DNA of 64,000 nucleotides from NCBI GenBank assembly GCA_017527825.1, contig JAFXPO010000047.1, positions 62,001 to 126,000 on the forward strand. Reading direction: 5' to 3'. The notes under the pieces were generated by a model that was given only the letters and a program-made list of their open reading frames with translations, was not told where the DNA came from and ran no database searches. Both the position numbers and the translations under genes were made by a program. Of this stretch, positions 28,370 through 35,792 are shown one piece after another. The stretch comes from Oscillospiraceae bacterium. GTDB taxonomy: Bacteria; Bacillota; Clostridia; Oscillospirales; Oscillospiraceae. Position 1 is the first letter of the stretch. Each line of letters begins with the position of its first letter.

Positions 28370-28420
28370 GCTTCCCGCCCCTTCCCAGTAAAACCGCAAG
28401 TATTATATCGCATTTCGTGC

Positions 28421-28452
28421 AAAAAAGAAACGCCTTACGGCGTTTCTTTTTT
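28421..28452. terminator. Bidirectional terminator overlapping the end of the ACS-like gene
   Basis: Perfect 14-bp stem AAAAAAGAAACGCC / GGCGTTTCTTTTTT around TTAC (28435-28438). On the minus strand it ends the redox operon, and the stop codon of that gene lies in the loop. Confidence 0.88.
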
Positions 28453-29160
28453 GCTTTTCATGCCAAAATGCATCTCCCGCATGCCCTCCACCTCGTCGCA
28501 GACAGGTTTGAGGCTGCACGAGCCGCAGTCCGTGGGGATACCCTCCAGAATGTGCGTCAGTGTTTTGGTGATATCATCCACCTTCTTCGCGGTCCTGACC
28601 AGCTCGGACACCGCCGCATGGTCGGTGACGAACACGATCTGCACGCGCCGGACGTGCTCATTTCTGTGGTAGCCCTTGATGTATGCCGAACCGACGGCGC
28701 GGAAGTCGATGCCGCGGCTGACGGCGGTCTTGCTCAGGCGCACCTGCTCGCGGTTGCTCTCCGACGAAATGCGCACCATGTAGCCCTCCGGGAACACATG
28801 GTACTTGACAAACTCCATGTCCCGGATCGCCTGATAGGCGGCTTCGTCGTCTCCGCCGAGGTCATCCGTCAGCAGGAAGGCAAGGCGCGCGAAGGACACG
28901 TCTCCGCGCAGCTCCGGCAAGTCCTTACCGTAGAGCAGTATCTCATCCTTCGGGACAAGCGCCTCGTCGCTCGTGACACAGGTGAAGTTCGCCGACGGAC
29001 AGCCGCTGCCGCCCAGCTCAAACGCCGCGTCGCGGAGCATGACCAGTTCGCTCTCACCGGTGTCGCGCCACGCCCGCGCGGGATCATAGTCCCACTGCCG
29101 CGGCGCCGCGCCCTCAAATAGAGCGCGGGTCGCGGTAATCATCGCGTTATACAGTTCCAT
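28435..29160 (-). CDS. Stand-alone acetyl-CoA synthase middle-domain-like protein with Cys motif (241 aa)
   Basis: Not annotated by one motif but by segment order. AFELGGSGCPSANF, ALVPKDEILLYGKDLPEL, EFVKYHVFPEGYMVRIS, REQVRLSKTAVSRGIDFRAVG and HVRRVQIVFVTD follow the order of the second domain of the acetyl-CoA synthase beta subunit (CdhC/AcsB) as I remember it (VSKDAVAKGFRF, VDRVQVTIFTD). A Cys triad CGSCSLKPVC (C-x2-C-x5-C) comes where ACS has its first cluster-A cysteines, then the protein stops. The N-terminal CODH-contact domain and the Ni-site C-terminal domain are absent. A metal- or CoA-related function is inferred. It is the last gene of the operon. Confidence 0.65.
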   Translation of the reverse strand: MELYNAMITATRALFEGAAPRQWDYDPARAWRDTGESELVMLRDAAFELGGSGCPSANFTCVTSDEALVPKDEILLYGKDLPELRGDVSFARLAFLLTDDLGGDDEAAYQAIRDMEFVKYHVFPEGYMVRISSESNREQVRLSKTAVSRGIDFRAVGSAYIKGYHRNEHVRRVQIVFVTDHAAVSELVRTAKKVDDITKTLTHILEGIPTDCGSCSLKPVCDEVEGMREMHFGMKSKKETP

Positions 29161-29163
29161 GGG

Positions 29164-29331
29164 CTAGAATTTGATGTCCACGTTCTTGCGGTCGTGGATG
29201 CGGTTGACCTGCGTATAGACCCAGCCCAGCACCTTCTGGTCAAGGTTCCAGAAATACACGACAAACAGCACCGCCACAACAGCAAACAGAATCTTGAAGA
29301 TCGTCCAGAGGACGTTCAGCACAGTCTTCAT
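29164..29331 (-). CDS. Small single-helix membrane protein in the redox operon (55 aa)
   Basis: A gene of 55 codons between the activator (17-bp gap) and the ACS-like gene (3-bp gap). ATG 29331 has GGAGG five bases upstream. One membrane helix (about residues 7-28, VLWTIFKILFAVVAVLFVVY) and a basic, hydrophilic tail (VYTQVNRIHDRKNVDIKF). Unrecognised. It could dock the redox complex to the membrane, which is inference from position alone. Confidence 0.75.
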   Translation of the reverse strand: MKTVLNVLWTIFKILFAVVAVLFVVYFWNLDQKVLGWVYTQVNRIHDRKNVDIKF

Positions 29332-29348: not shown

Positions 29349-30149
29349 TTAAGCGCTCTTCTTGGCAAGCCCCTTCTGGCGGGCGTACTCCGCCGCGCCC
29401 AGCGCGCCCATGAGCTGCGGGTCGGTCTTGAGTTCGACGACCTTGAGCTTCAATACATGCTCGATCGCCTGCTTGAGACCGTCGTTCTTGGCACAGCCGC
29501 CGGTGAGCGTGATGCTGTCCACTGCGCCCGCCTTCTTCGCCATGACGAAGCAGCGCTTCGCCACCGCCATCTGGATGCCCGCGGCGATCTCGTCCATCGG
29601 CTTGCCCTCGCCCACGAGGGTGATGACCTCAGACTCGGCAAACACGGTGCACTGCGCAGTGATGGGGATGACGTTCTTCGCGCCGAGCGACAGCTTGGAA
29701 AACTCAGGCAGCGTCATTTCAAACGAGCGCGCCATCGCCTCATAGAAGCGGCCTGTACCGGCGGCGCACTTGTCGTTCATGGCGAAGTTCTTCACCGTGC
29801 CGTCGGAATCGATGCTGATGCCCTTGACGTCCTGCCCGCCAATGTCGATGATCGCCTTCACGTCAGGGTTGGTAATGTGCACGCCCATGGCGTGACAGGA
29901 GATTTCAGAGATGTTCTCATCCGCAAACGGTACCTTATTGCGGCCGTAGCCTGTGCCGATGAGGTATTCAAGTTCTTTGGAATCCTTGAGTCCCGCGCTC
30001 TTGCAGACCTCCTCCATCGCCAGCGTCGCGCTGATCTCGGAGTTGATCTTGGAGCGGATGGTGGTGTCGGCAACGATCTTGCCGGTTTCGTCCAGAATGA
30101 CCGCCTTGGTGTATGTGGAGCCTACGTCGCAGCCGCCGAAGTATTTCAT
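29349..30149 (-). CDS. ATP-dependent dehydratase/DCCP activator, HgdC-like (266 aa)
   Basis: ASKHA-fold ATPase of the acyl-CoA dehydratase activase family. ATP sites: GCDVGSTYTKAV (phosphate 1), DIGGQDVK (phosphate 2) and TGGCAKNDGL (adenosine region). The two cysteines that bridge the [4Fe-4S] cluster between monomers are in NDKCAAGTGRF and TAQCTVFAESE. Family members form homodimers that use ATP to raise an electron from ferredoxin onto an HgdAB- or double-cubane-type partner. The partners are encoded directly upstream. GGGAG precedes the ATG. Confidence 0.94.
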   Translation of the reverse strand: MKYFGGCDVGSTYTKAVILDETGKIVADTTIRSKINSEISATLAMEEVCKSAGLKDSKELEYLIGTGYGRNKVPFADENISEISCHAMGVHITNPDVKAIIDIGGQDVKGISIDSDGTVKNFAMNDKCAAGTGRFYEAMARSFEMTLPEFSKLSLGAKNVIPITAQCTVFAESEVITLVGEGKPMDEIAAGIQMAVAKRCFVMAKKAGAVDSITLTGGCAKNDGLKQAIEHVLKLKVVELKTDPQLMGALGAAEYARQKGLAKKSA

Positions 30150-30190: not shown

Positions 30191-31975
30191 TTACCACGTT
30201 GCATCGTCTTCGAAATCGACCAGCGATTCGTCGATGGGCGTCGCGCCCATGACCGTGTACATGAACTCGTTGATCTTGTCGCGCATGGCGCGGCGGGAGA
30301 CAGTACGCGGGTCCATCAGGTCATGCTCGATCCAGACCATCTTGTAGTCCTTTTGCCGCGCCTGCTCGTCAAGGAGGCCCTGCAGCGTCGCCATGTTCTT
30401 GCACGCGACGTTCTGATACATGAGGATCATGTCGACCTTCCAGATTTCGCACTGACGCCACAGCTCGTTGACGACGTTGTGATAACCGCCGTTGGTGTGG
30501 CGGCGCATGACCATGCGCTCATAGAGGCGGGCGAGGTCTTGCAGCGCAAGCTCCTTGTCCTCAGTCTCCAGCGGACGGGTAAAGTTCAGGCTTTCCATCT
30601 CCACCAGCACGTCCACGCCCCAGCAGTTTGCGATCCAGTTGGTGAGGTTTGCGTAGTAGTGCGCCGGACACGACCAGACGATCGCGCGGTACTTCATCTT
30701 GCCGCGCCACGCCTCCTCGCGCTTTTCATACGCCTCAAGCATGATCTTGTTGACCTTTTCAAAGGTCTTGATGACGCGCGGGTCAGCGCCGCCGTCCATC
30801 TCATAGTTCCACTTGCGGAACAGTTCATAGCAGGGACCGATGAGCTGCGGGTACGGGGTCTGGTTGACCTCCCACTTTTGCAGCTCGTACTGGGTCTCCA
30901 GATTGAAGCGCTTCATCTGCTTGAAGTACGCGTCCCAGTTCCACTTCGCGCCGGTGGTCTCCTCGATGAACTTGATGCAGTGCTTGATGTCCTCCGCCGC
31001 GTCCTCGACGGTTTCCTCGTACTCGTAGCGCACGGGGAAGGTCAGGTGGAACACCGGCAGGTTCGGGAACCGCCGCGCCATGTAGGACGACGCCATGGTA
31101 GAGCCGTCGCACGGCATGGAGCTGGAAATGAAGCAGGAGCCCATGTGCGGCAGGGCGTCGGTAACGATGGCGCCGCACTCGCTCGACGGCACCGGGCAGG
31201 TGTCGGACGGAAGCCCGAAGCTCTCCACCGCGTCAATGTATGGCACGCAGGTGAGCTGGTCGACCTCGGAGACGAGGAACACCGGCAGCAGCTGGTACGG
31301 GATGCCGAGCAGATCGGGGAAGCCCGCCATGATCTGTCCCATGGTCATCTCATCGAAGAGCACGACCTTTTTGTTCAGCTCGGTGGCGTTGCCGTTCTTC
31401 TCGTCGCACTTGGCGAGGAACACCAGATTCTCCGCCACATAGCGGAAAATGTCATAGATCAGCAGATGACTCATGCGCAGCGCACTGCCCCGCTGTCCCA
31501 GCGTGTTCTTGTCCATAAACGAATGGGCGCAGAAATAGGAGATCATCCAGCGGTAATACAGCGTCGCGTTGAGCGAAGGTACCAGGTCCTTGCTGAACGT
31601 GCCGAGGAACATGCCCCACATGCGCAGCCATTCATAGAAGTCGTAGGCGGTGTCGCCTACGCCGCGCCACTCGCGGCGGACGGTCGCCATGCAGCCGGAG
31701 CGGTAGAGCTTACCCAGCTTCTTCTCGCCGTTGAGGATGACGTCCTTGCGCTCGTCGTTGCTCATGGCGGCGAACGCCTTTGCTTCGTCGGCAATGCGCT
31801 TGCCGGTAAGCGTCAGGTTCTTTTTGTGCCGCGCGGCGACGGCGCGCCAGTCGGTCTCCCGGAGCATATCGCCGATGATGCCGCCAACCTCCTTGAGGTT
31901 TTTTGCCTGCGCTTTCCAGTCGATGTGATCCTTGTAGCGCCAAAACGACGGATTCGGGAATTTCGTCTCAGCCAT
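30191..31975 (-). CDS. HgdB-like 2-hydroxyacyl-CoA dehydratase family subunit, large (594 aa)
   Basis: Recognised by context and by HGD-D-like segments: GIPYQLLPVFLVSEVDQL, a Cys-rich stretch SSECGAIVTDALPHMGSCF and SSSMPCDGSTMASSYMARRF, and a Cys-containing RAIVWSCPAHYY. Family enzymes hold a [4Fe-4S] or, in double-cubane cluster proteins, an [8Fe-9S] cluster. At 594 residues it is far larger than HgdA/HgdB (about 370-480), with an N-terminal extension of about 90 residues that is basic. It overlaps the other subunit by 8 nt. I cannot say whether it makes a true dehydratase; cluster ligands need alignment. Confidence 0.78.
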   Translation of the reverse strand: MAETKFPNPSFWRYKDHIDWKAQAKNLKEVGGIIGDMLRETDWRAVAARHKKNLTLTGKRIADEAKAFAAMSNDERKDVILNGEKKLGKLYRSGCMATVRREWRGVGDTAYDFYEWLRMWGMFLGTFSKDLVPSLNATLYYRWMISYFCAHSFMDKNTLGQRGSALRMSHLLIYDIFRYVAENLVFLAKCDEKNGNATELNKKVVLFDEMTMGQIMAGFPDLLGIPYQLLPVFLVSEVDQLTCVPYIDAVESFGLPSDTCPVPSSECGAIVTDALPHMGSCFISSSMPCDGSTMASSYMARRFPNLPVFHLTFPVRYEYEETVEDAAEDIKHCIKFIEETTGAKWNWDAYFKQMKRFNLETQYELQKWEVNQTPYPQLIGPCYELFRKWNYEMDGGADPRVIKTFEKVNKIMLEAYEKREEAWRGKMKYRAIVWSCPAHYYANLTNWIANCWGVDVLVEMESLNFTRPLETEDKELALQDLARLYERMVMRRHTNGGYHNVVNELWRQCEIWKVDMILMYQNVACKNMATLQGLLDEQARQKDYKMVWIEHDLMDPRTVSRRAMRDKINEFMYTVMGATPIDESLVDFEDDATW

Positions 31976-33200
31976 TGCTTGCCGCCTCCTTCGCCTGATG
32001 GATACGCTTGATCTCCAGCGACTCCACGAACGCCTGGAAGCGTGTGCGGAGCTGACCGGAGGTGCGAGCGTTGTACGGGCGGTCGATGGACAGCACCGGC
32101 CAACCGTATTCCTCGTTCATGATGTGGCTCACCAGCGCGCGCTCAAAGCCCCAGTAGTCGCAGAATTTCATCTGCTCGTAGATAATGCCGTCGGCGTGGA
32201 ACTTTTTCGCCAGCTTGTCCGCAGTCTCACGGCGCTGGAGCACCTTGTCGTCCGCGATGTAGCGTGCGCACTCGGAATGGCGCATGTAATGCTCGCAGAT
32301 TTGCGTCAGCACGTCGTCGGTATCGTTCAGCTCGATGACCTCGCGCCCCGGCGTGGAGCCGTAGCAATAGCGGTCAGACACCACGAACGCCCCCGCCTCC
32401 TCGATCATCTTCGTCAGCGACGGATCGTCGATCTCGCTGCCGACGATGGCGACGCGGGCACGGTACCACGGCTTGTCGTCCGCCTCGCGCGCCTTGATCT
32501 CCGCCAGCGTTTCGCGCAGCAGCGGCAGAATCAGGTACTTCGGACATGTGTAACTCACCAGATTGAGGATGTGGAACTCGTAGCCCGTGACAGGCGGGTT
32601 CTCCAGCGCACGCATCTCGCCGATCTCGCTGATGATGCGGCAAACCTCGTTGTGCTCCTCCACCGCCTTGCGCAGCGCGGCGTCCGAAGTATCGACATGG
32701 TAGTTGTCCTCCATGTAGTTGAGCAGGCGGTGCTTCATCTGCTTGACGTACTGGCGGATGGTGTAGTCCTCGATCTTGAACGGCACGTCCACATGGCTGA
32801 CGAACATCTTAGGCTTTTCATTGAGCTTGAGCAGTTCAAAATGCTCATAGAAGCGGTTCATCATGGAACAGGCGTCCACACCGGCAAGCCCGTCGAGGAA
32901 GTTGTAGCCGCCCTCAATGCTGCGCTCCAGCAGCGCGCGGGCAAACTCGCAGGTGTAGTTCGACATGTAGTAGGTCGCCATGTCGATCGATCCCGTGCGC
33001 GGCGCGCGCAGGCGCACGGAGAAGCAGCTGCCCAGATTCAGCAGCACTTCGGGGATGTGGTAACAGGTGTAGCCGATGGCGAGCTTGCCCTCCGCCTGCG
33101 CCTGTTGTACCAGCTCGTTGTTTGCCTCCTCCAGCAGGTTCTCAAAGTAGATTAAATGCTTGAGATCCTTCAAATGGTACACCTCTCTTCCTTTTCTCAT
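31968..33200 (-). CDS. HgdB-like 2-hydroxyacyl-CoA dehydratase family subunit, small (410 aa)
   Basis: HGD-D family with conserved Cys at expected places: GYTCYHIPEVLLNLG (the CxxxPxxLxxA/LG motif), MSNYTCEFARALLE, GVDACSMMNRFYEHFE and KFCDYWGFER near the C-terminus. Length is that of HgdA/B or DCCP subunits. The start overlaps the CooC-like stop (ATGA) at 33200; SD there is weak, and GTG 33182 after GGAAGAGAG is an alternative. With the 594-residue partner it should form the acceptor of electrons from the HgdC-like activator. Confidence 0.85.
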   Translation of the reverse strand: MRKGREVYHLKDLKHLIYFENLLEEANNELVQQAQAEGKLAIGYTCYHIPEVLLNLGSCFSVRLRAPRTGSIDMATYYMSNYTCEFARALLERSIEGGYNFLDGLAGVDACSMMNRFYEHFELLKLNEKPKMFVSHVDVPFKIEDYTIRQYVKQMKHRLLNYMEDNYHVDTSDAALRKAVEEHNEVCRIISEIGEMRALENPPVTGYEFHILNLVSYTCPKYLILPLLRETLAEIKAREADDKPWYRARVAIVGSEIDDPSLTKMIEEAGAFVVSDRYCYGSTPGREVIELNDTDDVLTQICEHYMRHSECARYIADDKVLQRRETADKLAKKFHADGIIYEQMKFCDYWGFERALVSHIMNEEYGWPVLSIDRPYNARTSGQLRTRFQAFVESLEIKRIHQAKEAASNG

Positions 33201-33946
33201 TCCAATTTCAGGAGCGCCTGCCGCGCTCCGGCAATCACAGGGGAATCCTCGCTGAGGTCAAACACACTTTTGCCCCGCACGTCGTTTTGCGCCTGCTGTG
33301 CGTCTGCCTCGATCACCGCCAGCACCTCCGCGCCCGCGATGTCGGGATCGGTGACCAGCTCCGGGCGGGTAGCGCGGTTGATGATGACGCCGCACTTGTC
33401 GTACATCACCAGCTCATCCGCCACGCGCTTGATGGTGTCGATGACCTGATAGCCCTTGCGGCTCTGGTCGGTGATGAGCAGCAGGTGCGTCACCTTTTCC
33501 ATCACGCGGCGATTGATCTGCTCGATGCCTGCCTCGCCGTCAATCACCACAAAGTCGAAGTCGCCAGAAAGCAGGCTGATGACCTCCTTCAGGTAGCCGT
33601 TCACGGTGCAGTAGCAGCCAGCGGTCTCCGGCCGCCCGATGGCGAGAAACGCGAAGCCCCGCGTCTCCACCATGGAATCAAAAAGACGGAACCGAGCTTC
33701 GGCGATCAACTCGTCCGGGTTGGTTTTTGTGGCGTCCGTGGCAAGGCTTTTGCGGATGTCGTCCAGCGTCTCTGTCACCTCGACGCCCAGCGCCGTGGAA
33801 AGTCCGACGGCGGGGTCAGCGTCAATGGCAAGAATTCTCGCCTCAGGGTGTTGCTCCGTGAGCAACCGCAGCACCGCGGCGGAAAGAGACGTCTTGCCGA
33901 CGCCGCCCTTTCCCGCGACGGCAATGATCTTCGCGCCCAATCGCAT
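33197..33946 (-). CDS. CooC-type metal-insertion ATPase (249 aa)
   Basis: SIMIBI/MinD-fold ATPase: deviant P-loop GKGGVGKTS, AIDADPAVGL, and a switch segment VVIDGEAGIEQ. The segment IGRPETAGCYCTVNGYLK matches the CooC signature with the CxC pair that binds Ni (or Zn) at the dimer interface. CooC/AcsF proteins mature CODH or acetyl-CoA synthase. No CODH gene is in the window; the only ACS-related gene is the truncated one in this operon. First gene of the operon. GTG 33949 and ATG 33946 are both possible starts. Confidence 0.9.
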   Translation of the reverse strand: MRLGAKIIAVAGKGGVGKTSLSAAVLRLLTEQHPEARILAIDADPAVGLSTALGVEVTETLDDIRKSLATDATKTNPDELIAEARFRLFDSMVETRGFAFLAIGRPETAGCYCTVNGYLKEVISLLSGDFDFVVIDGEAGIEQINRRVMEKVTHLLLITDQSRKGYQVIDTIKRVADELVMYDKCGVIINRATRPELVTDPDIAGAEVLAVIEADAQQAQNDVRGKSVFDLSEDSPVIAGARQALLKLE

Positions 33947-33990
33947 CACCCCTTCCGCGTAGTATCGAGCTACTCCAATATGACTTATCT

Positions 33991-34019
33991 ATTGTACCAT
34001 GGAATCTGACGCTTGACAA
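33991..34019 (-). promoter_or_regulatory. Promoter of the CooC/HgdB redox operon
   Basis: Minus-strand -35 TTGTCA (34014-34019), 17-bp spacer, -10 TACAAT (33991-33996). It lies 45 bp upstream of the first start. Confidence 0.75.
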
Positions 34020-34106: not shown

Positions 34107-35792
34107 ATGATGAACCACATACGAAAGCTTTTGGCGCTTCTGCTCTCCGCGCTGCTCCTGCTCACGCCCGCATCAGCAGGGTATTATGAGGCGTTCCGCC
34201 ACAGCGAAGTCCCCTTCGATCAAATGGTTTACACCGGCATCGATGTGGACGCCGTGAGCGCGTTCTGCGACCGTTTTATGCAGGAACCAGCCGCGCTCTA
34301 TCCCGATCTGCTGGCGCTATACGATGAAATCTACACACAAAACGAGCTTGCCTACATCACGATGTGCCAGCGTCCCGGCGACGAAGCCGCCGCTGACGAA
34401 GCCGGACGCGCCGGTGACGCGTTCGCTGACGCCAGCGACCGCATCTACAGTGCGCTGAGCGAGGCGCTTTCCGGTTCCGACGGAGTGGCTCTGGCGGCGC
34501 TGATGCCGGAGGGGCAGTCAGAGGGTTTCACAAACTACGCGCCGCTGTCCGACGAGGATTCCGCGTCGATGAGCGCGGAGGATGAGCTGATCCGCCGGTA
34601 CTACCTGCTGCCGGAGGACGAAGACTATGCCGACGCGGCGGGCGAGGTGTATCTGCGTCTCGCATCGCTGCGCCGCACGGAGGCGGAGCGCGCCGGATTT
34701 GACAGCTACCCGGAATATGCCTATTACACGCTTTACGGGCGGGAATATGAACCGGCGGATATGCGCGCCTTGCAGCGCGTCGTAAAGGATCAACTCGCGC
34801 CGCTGCTGGTGCGCTGCTACGAGTCCTCCGCGGCACTGCCTGACGACGCGCCGCCTGCGGACGAGGAACTTCTGGGAAACATCGCCGCGCGCATTGGCGA
34901 GATTTCACCGGAGCTGAACGAGGCGATGGAGTATCTGCTGCGCAACCGTCTCTACCGCTTCGGCACCGGCGAGGAGTTGCTGGACATGGGCTACACCGCC
35001 GCTCTGCCCGCTTACCGCGCCGCGTTCATCTTCAACTGCGCGGACACCGCGTTTCGCGCCTACAAGGACACCGTTCACGAGTTCGGGCACTTCAACGCAG
35101 CGTACCACGACCCGACACCCATGCTCTACCAGCTGGATAACAGCGACGTCGCAGAAATTCAGTCTCAGGGGCTGGAGCTTCTGTTTCTCCCCTTTTTGCA
35201 GGATATCCTCGCGGACAGCGAGCAGGAGCACAGCGCCGTCGCCGTTACCGTGCTGGGCGAAATGCTGGATTCGATCGTCAGCGGATGCCTGTATGATGAG
35301 TTTGAGCAGACGGTATACGCTTCGCCGGAGCTTACGGTGGACGGGCTGCACGCGCTGGAACAGAAGCTGTTGAAAGAGTACAAGCTCACTGCGCTCTTCG
35401 GCACGGAACCGGGCTGGTTTTACATCAACCACCTCTTTGACCGTCCCTGCTACTATATCTCCTATGCCACTTCCGCGCTTGCCTCGCTGGATATCTGGCT
35501 GATGTCGCTCCATGACCGCGATGCCGCCGTAGACACCTACCTGAAGATCTCCGCGGCACGCACGGACGCGTGGTTGTTTGACGTGCTGTACGACAACGGG
35601 CTGTGCGATCCCACCGACCGGAACGACCTCAAGCGCCTCGCATCAGAGCTGACGCGGGAGATCGATCCGACGGTCGGACGCGCGACGCCCCGCGCGGTCT
35701 GGTACGGCGTCGGCGGCGTCGCGATTCTGGGCGCCATCCTTGTTTTCCGGCGCGGCAGATCGTCCGCCAACGCAGAATCATTCGAGGAATAA
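34107..35792 (+). CDS. Secreted, membrane-anchored M3-like metallopeptidase (561 aa)
   Basis: Signal peptide of about 23 residues (LLALLLSALLLLTPASA, cut near AGY). A catalytic zinc motif HEFGH at residues 324-328 and a downstream Glu region (AEIQSQGLELLFLPFL) match the M3/oligoendopeptidase pattern, and YINHLFDRPCYYISYATSALASLDIW resembles the substrate-binding Tyr/His segment. A C-terminal helix (VWYGVGGVAILGAILVF) with a basic follow-up anchors it to the membrane, catalytic part outside. Most M3 peptidases are cytosolic. Substrate unknown. A single gene ending at a bidirectional terminator. Confidence 0.82.
   Translation: MMNHIRKLLALLLSALLLLTPASAGYYEAFRHSEVPFDQMVYTGIDVDAVSAFCDRFMQEPAALYPDLLALYDEIYTQNELAYITMCQRPGDEAAADEAGRAGDAFADASDRIYSALSEALSGSDGVALAALMPEGQSEGFTNYAPLSDEDSASMSAEDELIRRYYLLPEDEDYADAAGEVYLRLASLRRTEAERAGFDSYPEYAYYTLYGREYEPADMRALQRVVKDQLAPLLVRCYESSAALPDDAPPADEELLGNIAARIGEISPELNEAMEYLLRNRLYRFGTGEELLDMGYTAALPAYRAAFIFNCADTAFRAYKDTVHEFGHFNAAYHDPTPMLYQLDNSDVAEIQSQGLELLFLPFLQDILADSEQEHSAVAVTVLGEMLDSIVSGCLYDEFEQTVYASPELTVDGLHALEQKLLKEYKLTALFGTEPGWFYINHLFDRPCYYISYATSALASLDIWLMSLHDRDAAVDTYLKISAARTDAWLFDVLYDNGLCDPTDRNDLKRLASELTREIDPTVGRATPRAVWYGVGGVAILGAILVFRRGRSSANAESFEE

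Follow-up and report, generated by a model that had tools for sequence, protein, structure and literature searches.

A 64,000-nucleotide stretch of DNA from an Oscillospiraceae bacterium (GCA_017527825.1, contig JAFXPO010000047.1, positions 62,001 to 126,000; hereafter the window) encodes a CooC-type ATPase next to a reductase-like enzyme and a small relative of acetyl-CoA synthase (ACS). CooC, CooT and CooJ are known from the maturation of carbon monoxide dehydrogenase (CODH) (PMC6006190; PMC numbers refer throughout to individual passages of the papers). The usual reading of CooC and ACS-type proteins is that they indicate CO or acetyl-CoA chemistry; in this case they mark a different, widely spread enzyme system. 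Judged from sequence, a conserved operon joins CooC, a mini-ACS protein and a reductase resembling benzoyl-CoA reductase (BCR) in bacteria that mostly have no CODH, and it points to a route, not described so far, by which BCR-like reductases are supplied with metal. We favour, at a probability of about 55%, the reading that CooC acts as a metallochaperone ATPase dedicated to this six-gene operon, serving an ATP-driven reductase of the archerase family, probably tethered to the membrane. This reading draws on gene order, conservation, co-occurrence, cysteine patterns and folds, all of them observed in sequences or predicted models.

The CooC gene, its operon and their distribution

The operon lies on the minus strand and consists of six genes in the following order, separated by -4, -8, 41, 17 and 3 nucleotides:

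cooC, 33197..33949, minus strand: MinD/NifH-type ATPase of the CooC family with a CxC pair; GTG start at 33949, alternative ATG at 33946
hgdS, 31968..33200, minus strand: BzdN/DCCP-like subunit, 410 amino acids; 4-nucleotide overlap with cooC
hgdL, 30191..31975, minus strand: BzdO/HadB-like subunit, 594 amino acids; 8-nucleotide overlap with hgdS
hgdC, 29349..30149, minus strand: acyl-CoA dehydratase activase (ATPase), 266 amino acids
micropeptide gene, 29164..29331, minus strand: 55 amino acids with one apparent membrane span, an FWNLDQK motif and a basic tail
cdhCl, 28435..29160, minus strand: stand-alone ACS middle domain, 241 amino acids, with a C-terminal CX2CX5C

A first-pass annotation of this DNA had named a CooC-type ATPase at 33197-33946. 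The gene is real, although it had to be placed on the minus strand and extended to the GTG codon at 33949; the plus-strand frame across 33197-33949 is also open and was rejected as the antisense of cooC. The family assignment of the 250-residue protein is borne out by its best solved relative, the CooC of Carboxydothermus hydrogenoformans (3kje, E 1.9e-19 with a profile of five relatives), by a deviant Walker A P-loop with the signature lysine (GKGGVGKT), and by its place in the CooC tree described below. Pfam matches are confined to general models (CbiA, AAA_31, ArsA), and the MinD- and ArsA-type models of NCBIfam match below their specific cut-offs. The P-loop glycines and lysines are kept in all 40 CooC rows above 195 bits (38 from archerase loci, the second CooC of the source genome at locus L016, and locus L054), and the valine in 39 of them.

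The metal site, described at the outset as an intact GCYC pair, is present as Cys112 and Cys114, numbered from the GTG, within a conserved GRPE-x2-GCYC-x2-N block. Of the 41 rows, which comprise L016, L054 and 39 from archerase loci, all retain it. The two cysteines bear the same numbers as the zinc ligands of C. hydrogenoformans CooC-1, Cys112 and Cys114, a site for which nickel competes (PMC6006190). The same source questions whether all CooC proteins bind nickel and states that not every CooC binds it tightly.

The source genome (2.6 Mb, 51 contigs, 100% complete, with the window on its contig C17) has no match to the CODH model TIGR01702 above cut-off. The initial remark that no CODH lies nearby thus holds for the genome as a whole. 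A wider look for cooS and acsB elsewhere in the genome returned no CODH and no full ACS, the sole CdhC match being the 241-residue CdhCl of the operon, and no complete CODH/ACS cluster lacking its own CooC was found. CODH and ACS encoded elsewhere were therefore set aside as clients of CooC. NiFe hydrogenase, considered as a further client, has no match in the source genome, with no search made for lactate racemase, urease or other nickel enzymes; 8 of 34 carriers of CdhCl do match it.

To follow the gene set through other genomes, a CdhCl profile was used that had been built from 12 seed sequences, all from CooC loci, so that the search retains some dependence on CooC. Stand-alone CdhCl was found in 7 of 391 class genomes and in 30 of 397 genomes sampled from a single family of Clostridia (f31, the family of genome G223). 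Neighbours were counted in the stretches fetched around 34 distinct CdhCl loci: HgdC occurs at 33, HgdL at 31, HgdS at 29 and CooC at 29, and every counted CooC and HgdC gene shares the strand of CdhCl. Where CooC is missing, at five loci, the contig ends after only 300-2237 bp; at every locus that has CooC, 5588 bp or more are available. A search for HgdL (E <= 1e-25) in the 391 class genomes returned the same seven genomes as CdhCl. The naive chance of identical carrier sets is 3.8e-15, with the qualification that the seven fall in four families (f1, f12, f31, f58) and are not seven independent events. CODH above the TIGR01702 cut-off is missing in 27 of the 34 CdhCl carriers and present in seven; in an overlapping set of 13 genomes found via CooC, which includes named metagenome-assembled genomes (MAGs), 10 are without it and three have it.

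A contig scan based on CooC gave at least 80 loci, of which 22 entered the neighbourhood table and all 80 the broader locus comparison. Among the matches listed, the carriers are MAGs of Clostridia and Lachnospiraceae and single MAGs of Tissierellales, Spirochaetes, Bacteroidales, Deltaproteobacteria and a Sigynarchaeota archaeon; many Clostridia share the association of CooC, and a looser form of it is seen in other phyla. In a Bacteroidales MAG (L076, 7103-8038) a 312-residue protein stands between HgdL and CdhCl; Pfam gives no match for it at 1e-10.

The CooC tree holds 115 rows, was built by a quick search with support from the Shimodaira-Hasegawa-like approximate likelihood ratio test (SH-aLRT) only, and excludes rows that score below 65 bits or lack either CxC or a P-loop match. 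Forty CooCs from archerase loci and two unlabelled rows (L054 and the second CooC of the source genome) form one group (SH-aLRT 93), with an inner set of 38 rows at 98. Its sister (SH-aLRT 91) comprises 33 CooCs, among them those that adjoin ACS in L043, L044 and L047; the loci of 22 carry CODH or ACS. A third group, apart from both, has 40 rows, 24 with CODH or ACS and some directly after CODH. The archerase label changes three times on the tree, against 33 times in shuffles; the long branches of L042, L076 and L078 are placed with uncertainty.

The predicted reductase subunits and the ACS-like protein

HgdS and HgdL belong to the family of class I benzoyl-CoA reductases and 2-hydroxyacyl-CoA dehydratases, the archerases (Pfam HGD-D). 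Six cysteines of HgdS (46, 84, 111, 279, 311 and 347) are each kept in 45/45 or 46/46 copies that have a letter there, in an alignment of 47 rows. They align with the [8Fe-9S] double-cubane ligands of BzdN, Cys36/73/100/263/293/327 (PMC11971306), and also with the double-cubane cluster protein (DCCP). Against the NCBIfam double_cubane model NF040772, HgdS scores 142.2 and HgdL 40.7 bits, both under the cut-off of 350. HgdL has three conserved cysteines, 260 (47/47), 289 (47/47) and 525 (45/46), which align with the active-site ligands Cys95/128/380 of BzdO (PMC11971306), the middle one being one residue off in the alignment.

The predicted model of HgdL (mean predicted local distance difference test score, pLDDT, 77, with the first 100 residues mostly at low confidence) matches HadB (3o3m_A, Z 30.0) and BzdO (8s02_C, Z 29.8) from residue 165 to about 580. 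Matches to DCCP extend down to residue 123, and strong fold matches in general begin at 123-167. This leaves an N-terminal extension of about 120-160 residues, helical and partly of low confidence in the model.

HgdC is an acyl-CoA dehydratase activase. Its Cys128 and Cys167, which we take to be the cluster ligands of the activase, are kept in 38/38 copies. HgdC is the single activase gene of the window operon, which does not encode two different activase subunits as in BcrAD or BzdPQ. Activase pairs do occur in distant clusters (L042, L057 and L078), two of which, from a Spirochaetes MAG (L057, 4077-13349) and the Sigynarchaeota archaeon MAG (L078, 388-9765), are archerase clusters, BCR-like in their two activases, near CdhCl and CooC. 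The micropeptide also recurs: at 35 of 44 loci a protein of about 50-95 residues with one apparent membrane span lies beside HgdL or HgdC, and across loci it shows the motif (F/Y/W)-x-(N/D)LD-x-K and a basic tail. For the micropeptide of L018, the one tested, neither Pfam nor NCBIfam gave a match.

Genes for a CoA-ligase or for beta-oxidation are absent from the window operon, which gives no hint of the substrate. At locus L056 the set is followed by genes for an enoyl-CoA hydratase, a CoA-hydrolase/transferase, a 3-hydroxyacyl-CoA dehydrogenase and a thiolase. At L042 (7835-18775) a distant CooC (38%) accompanies HgdS/HgdL, two activases, a CoA-hydrolase/transferase, an AMP-ligase and a thiolase; this genome (G184) also has CODH with other CooCs (L048). 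These neighbours make CoA thioesters plausible substrates, at least at those two loci.

The ACS-like protein of the operon had been described as truncated. Its resemblance to ACS stands: the predicted model of CdhCl (pLDDT 87) matches residues 317-531 of ACS (1oao_C) with Z 18.3 and a root-mean-square deviation of 2.5 over 179 residues at 19% identity, the next unrelated row of the fold search having Z 3.7, and a profile search of the Protein Data Bank finds ACS at E 4.7e-17. It is not debris; by sequence conservation CdhCl is a stand-alone family. Its profile separates stand-alone frames of 231-274 residues (E <1e-50) from ACS-like frames of 537-978 residues (E >1e-18). Cysteines occur only at 54, 61, 212, 215 and 221, and the protein ends 20 residues after the CX2CX5C formed by the last three, which is invariant in 43/43 copies. 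The match to ACS stops where the A-cluster begins, and the remainder of the A-cluster domain is absent. In complete ACS the distal nickel site of the A-cluster is a CGC motif; the complete A-cluster domain with this site is absent from the 241 residues of CdhCl.

A promoter-like and a terminator-like signal lie at the two ends of the operon:

33991..34019, minus strand: sigma70-like promoter TTGTCA-17-TACAAT; its second hexamer is preceded by TG, and cooC starts about 40 bases downstream
28419..28454, no strand assigned: inverted repeat with a perfect stem of 16 pairs that takes in the final 20 bases of cdhCl

The first is a candidate promoter by consensus match alone (10 of 12 positions; the region has four such sites, against 2.0 +/- 1.4 in shuffles). 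The scan calls the second terminator-like on the plus strand; its stem is symmetrical and has T6 in one arm whichever strand is read, and it may serve the minus strand too and end the cooC-cdhCl operon. The GC content of the operon (0.596) is close to that of its flanks (0.625 and 0.604) and so gives no compositional sign of recent foreign origin. On the plus strand, 34107-35792 encodes an exported-looking protein of 561 residues that has no Pfam match at 0.001; it contains a zinc-protease motif, HEFGH, and a hydrophobic stretch at the C-terminal end.

A proposed role for CooC and the alternatives

The first-pass annotation had proposed an HgdB-like pair, now HgdS and HgdL, and the ACS-like protein as the only candidate clients of CooC. 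Tight packing, recurrence and the 27 carriers without CODH support this view. The present analysis adds the activase to the core set. It also brings in the micropeptide, two more HgdS/HgdL pairs and, elsewhere in the genome, another CooC gene that lies beside CooT.

From these data we infer metal delivery, nickel as the metal, the direction of transfer, membrane tethering, the electron path and the reductase activity itself. In the proposed mechanism, ATP hydrolysis by HgdC would push single electrons into HgdS, which would store them on its six-cysteine [8Fe-9S] double cubane and pass them to the three-cysteine active-site cluster of HgdL, where the substrate would be reduced. This path is adopted because the scheme known for the family has the activase drive electrons with ATP to the double cubane and then to the active site (PMC11971306). 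The micropeptide, perhaps together with the N-terminal helices of HgdL, would tie the reductase to the membrane. CooC would load a metal ion, most likely Ni(II), via the CxC site of its dimer, and the acceptor would be CdhCl or, via CdhCl, the open site of HgdL. CdhCl would then be an ACS relic that keeps the middle domain and the three-cysteine site at the start of the A-cluster. Nickel is the favoured metal. That the enzyme is an outright nickel-dependent archerase, with nickel in the active site or an accessory cluster and loaded by its own CooC via the ACS-derived protein, is a tentative proposal to which we give somewhat less than even odds.

The genomic surroundings bear on the choice of metal. 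CooT-like genes occur in 8 of the 34 fetched stretches, six of them within 1 kb of CdhCl, histidine-rich CooJ-like genes in seven (four within 1 kb), and HypB in two. All three CooT-like proteins tested (C35, L051, L055) match Pfam CooT; the other calls are phmmer similarities, some of only 25-42 bits. The label CooJ-like is given by size, histidine-rich stretches and position only, and three such proteins of 73-79 residues that were tested have no Pfam or NCBIfam match. The second CooC of the source genome (L016, 7540-8748, on contig C35) is 59% identical to the first and is followed by a histidine-rich protein of 79 residues, CooT (Pfam 69.6 bits) and, named by eye, NfnA and NfnB. At L051 (1119-1551), TusA-like and DUF3343-like small proteins, also named by eye, lie upstream of CooJ-like, CooT and CooC genes.

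The source genome has three HgdS/HgdL pairs (on C17, C19 and C27) and one CdhCl. The pair on C19 (L017, 4713-11092) comes with HypB (TIGR00073), a flavin/Fe-S oxidoreductase of 896 residues and a membrane micropeptide. Here again a nickel chaperone, HypB, is paired with this reductase type; relatives of the oxidoreductase lie near 9 of the 34 loci. The pair on C27 (L018, 7898-11133) is accompanied by a membrane micropeptide of its own; the fetched 18 kb contain neither CooC nor CdhCl. From this distribution, and from the loci L204, L219, L220 and L221 with their CooC, HgdC and CdhCl kept as a unit, one CooC-HgdC-CdhCl module may serve several HgdS/HgdL pairs.

Several observations weigh against the role proposed for CooC. 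CODH is present in the seven carriers mentioned above, zinc also binds the site of C. hydrogenoformans CooC-1 (PMC6006190), and CooT- or CooJ-like genes lie near only a minority of loci. Two of the 30 CdhCl matches in the Clostridia family (G741 and G453) have a stop codon inside the match. Genome G007 carries HgdL and CdhCl with no CooC match, on a CdhCl contig of only 4.3 kb that cuts the locus at its end. Three loci leave the client of CooC unfixed: at L042, CooC accompanies HgdS/HgdL and the 19 kb contain no CdhCl; at L204, a CooC-HgdC-CdhCl set occurs in 16 kb devoid of HgdS/HgdL; and at L078, HgdS/HgdL lie on the opposite strand about 4 kb from CdhCl-CooC.

The alternative that survives best, though we think it unlikely, is that CooC and CdhCl form an ATP-driven scaffold that builds or repairs the Fe-S clusters of HgdS and HgdL, the CxC pair holding zinc or a bridging Fe-S cluster and no nickel. 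It would account for the same client association. NifH of the same ATPase family holds a [4Fe-4S] cluster between two monomers and the structure of C. hydrogenoformans CooC-1 has zinc at Cys112/114 (both PMC6006190), and the CX2CX5C of CdhCl could bind a [4Fe-4S] cluster. However, BzdNO acquires its clusters in Escherichia coli from a bzdNO plasmid, the [8Fe-9S] cluster of BzdN included (PMC11971306), so that a double cubane as such needs no CooC, and the recurring CooT- and CooJ-like genes are hard to explain without nickel.

Less probable still is a small enzyme or electron carrier formed by CooC and CdhCl on their own, a mini-ACS or a redox or acyl/C1 module beside the reductase. CooC, HgdC and CdhCl do stay together in the rearranged loci L204, L219, L220 and L221, where HgdS/HgdL have moved or are absent, and CdhCl retains the ACS middle domain. 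It is, however, without the ACS domain that completes the A-cluster, and L042 pairs CooC with the reductase in the absence of a local CdhCl.

We consider it very improbable that the genes of the operon are neighbours by chance or linkage and that CooC is a house nickel chaperone for some other nickel enzyme. CODH in seven carriers and a NiFe-hydrogenase-type match in eight leave some room for this, the carriers not having been searched for lactate racemase, urease or other nickel enzymes; yet CooC is found at all 29 loci with enough sequence, the carrier sets are identical, the CooCs form a separate group, and the source genome has no CODH, full ACS or NiFe hydrogenase match. A partition- or ArsA-like ATPase merely resembling CooC can hardly be credited, despite the general Pfam and sub-cut-off NCBIfam matches, given the conserved CxC block, the best solved match to CooC and a group that adjoins the CooCs of CODH/ACS clusters.

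Should CooC deliver nickel, as we favour, a second metal and a pathway of maturation would have to be added to the picture of archerases, which carry out reductions at extremely low potential, and annotations as 'CODH accessory protein' or 'CO dehydrogenase/ACS beta subunit' would in some cases mislead. A nickel-dependent archerase, if true, would represent a class of nickel enzyme not described so far and spread among Clostridia most of which have no CODH. It would also suggest that the middle domain of ACS, together with the start of the A-cluster, is a metal-handling module in its own right.

Relation to known systems

Searches of the open-licence PMC literature, which leaves most subscription papers outside, returned no description of an operon of CooC, archerase and CdhCl, and passages of PMC10134865, PMC11971306, PMC13056359, PMC6006190, PMC7306483, PMC4148979 and PMC11338639 contain no link between CooC and archerases. 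Single parts of the system nevertheless resemble characterised proteins.

The (R)-2-hydroxyacyl-CoA dehydratases HadBC and HgdAB have the fold of HgdL and the activase type of HgdC. Contig C31 of the source genome (L019, 8375-15737) carries an apparent set of 2-hydroxyglutaryl-CoA dehydratase, glutaconate CoA-transferase and decarboxylase for glutamate fermentation, named by eye from translations; its HgdB-like protein, also named by eye, is without three of the six cysteines kept in HgdS.

The second CooC of CODH/ACS clusters, presumably the protein named AcsF, which adjoins ACS in L043, L044 and L047, belongs to the sister group and has the same CxC and P-loop. The window CooC is 33-37% identical to it in four comparisons, and its locus differs in having no CODH or full ACS.

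In the putative isoprene reductase operon of Acetobacterium, a flavin/Fe-S reductase, IsrA, is tied to the nickel chaperones HypA and HypB (PMC10134865). This system differs from the window operon in its enzyme family and in using HypA/HypB, not CooC. The oxidoreductase of 896 residues on C19 fits IsrA by domains, size and its HypB neighbour, in a comparison made with the published description only (PMC10134865).

DCCP and its reductase from C. hydrogenoformans (6eno, 7yyl) have the six-cysteine pattern and the ATPase activase in common with the HgdS set. DCCP is a homodimer (PMC11971306), and HgdS stays under the double_cubane cut-off. One described DCCP locus names only DCCP and its reductase (PMC7306483).

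The six cysteines of HgdS and the three of HgdL liken the reductase to the class I benzoyl-CoA reductases BzdNO of Aromatoleum (8s02) and MbdON of Thauera (9g87). Compared with these, the window operon has one activase gene instead of a pair, and adds the N-terminal helical region of HgdL, the membrane micropeptide, CooC and CdhCl.

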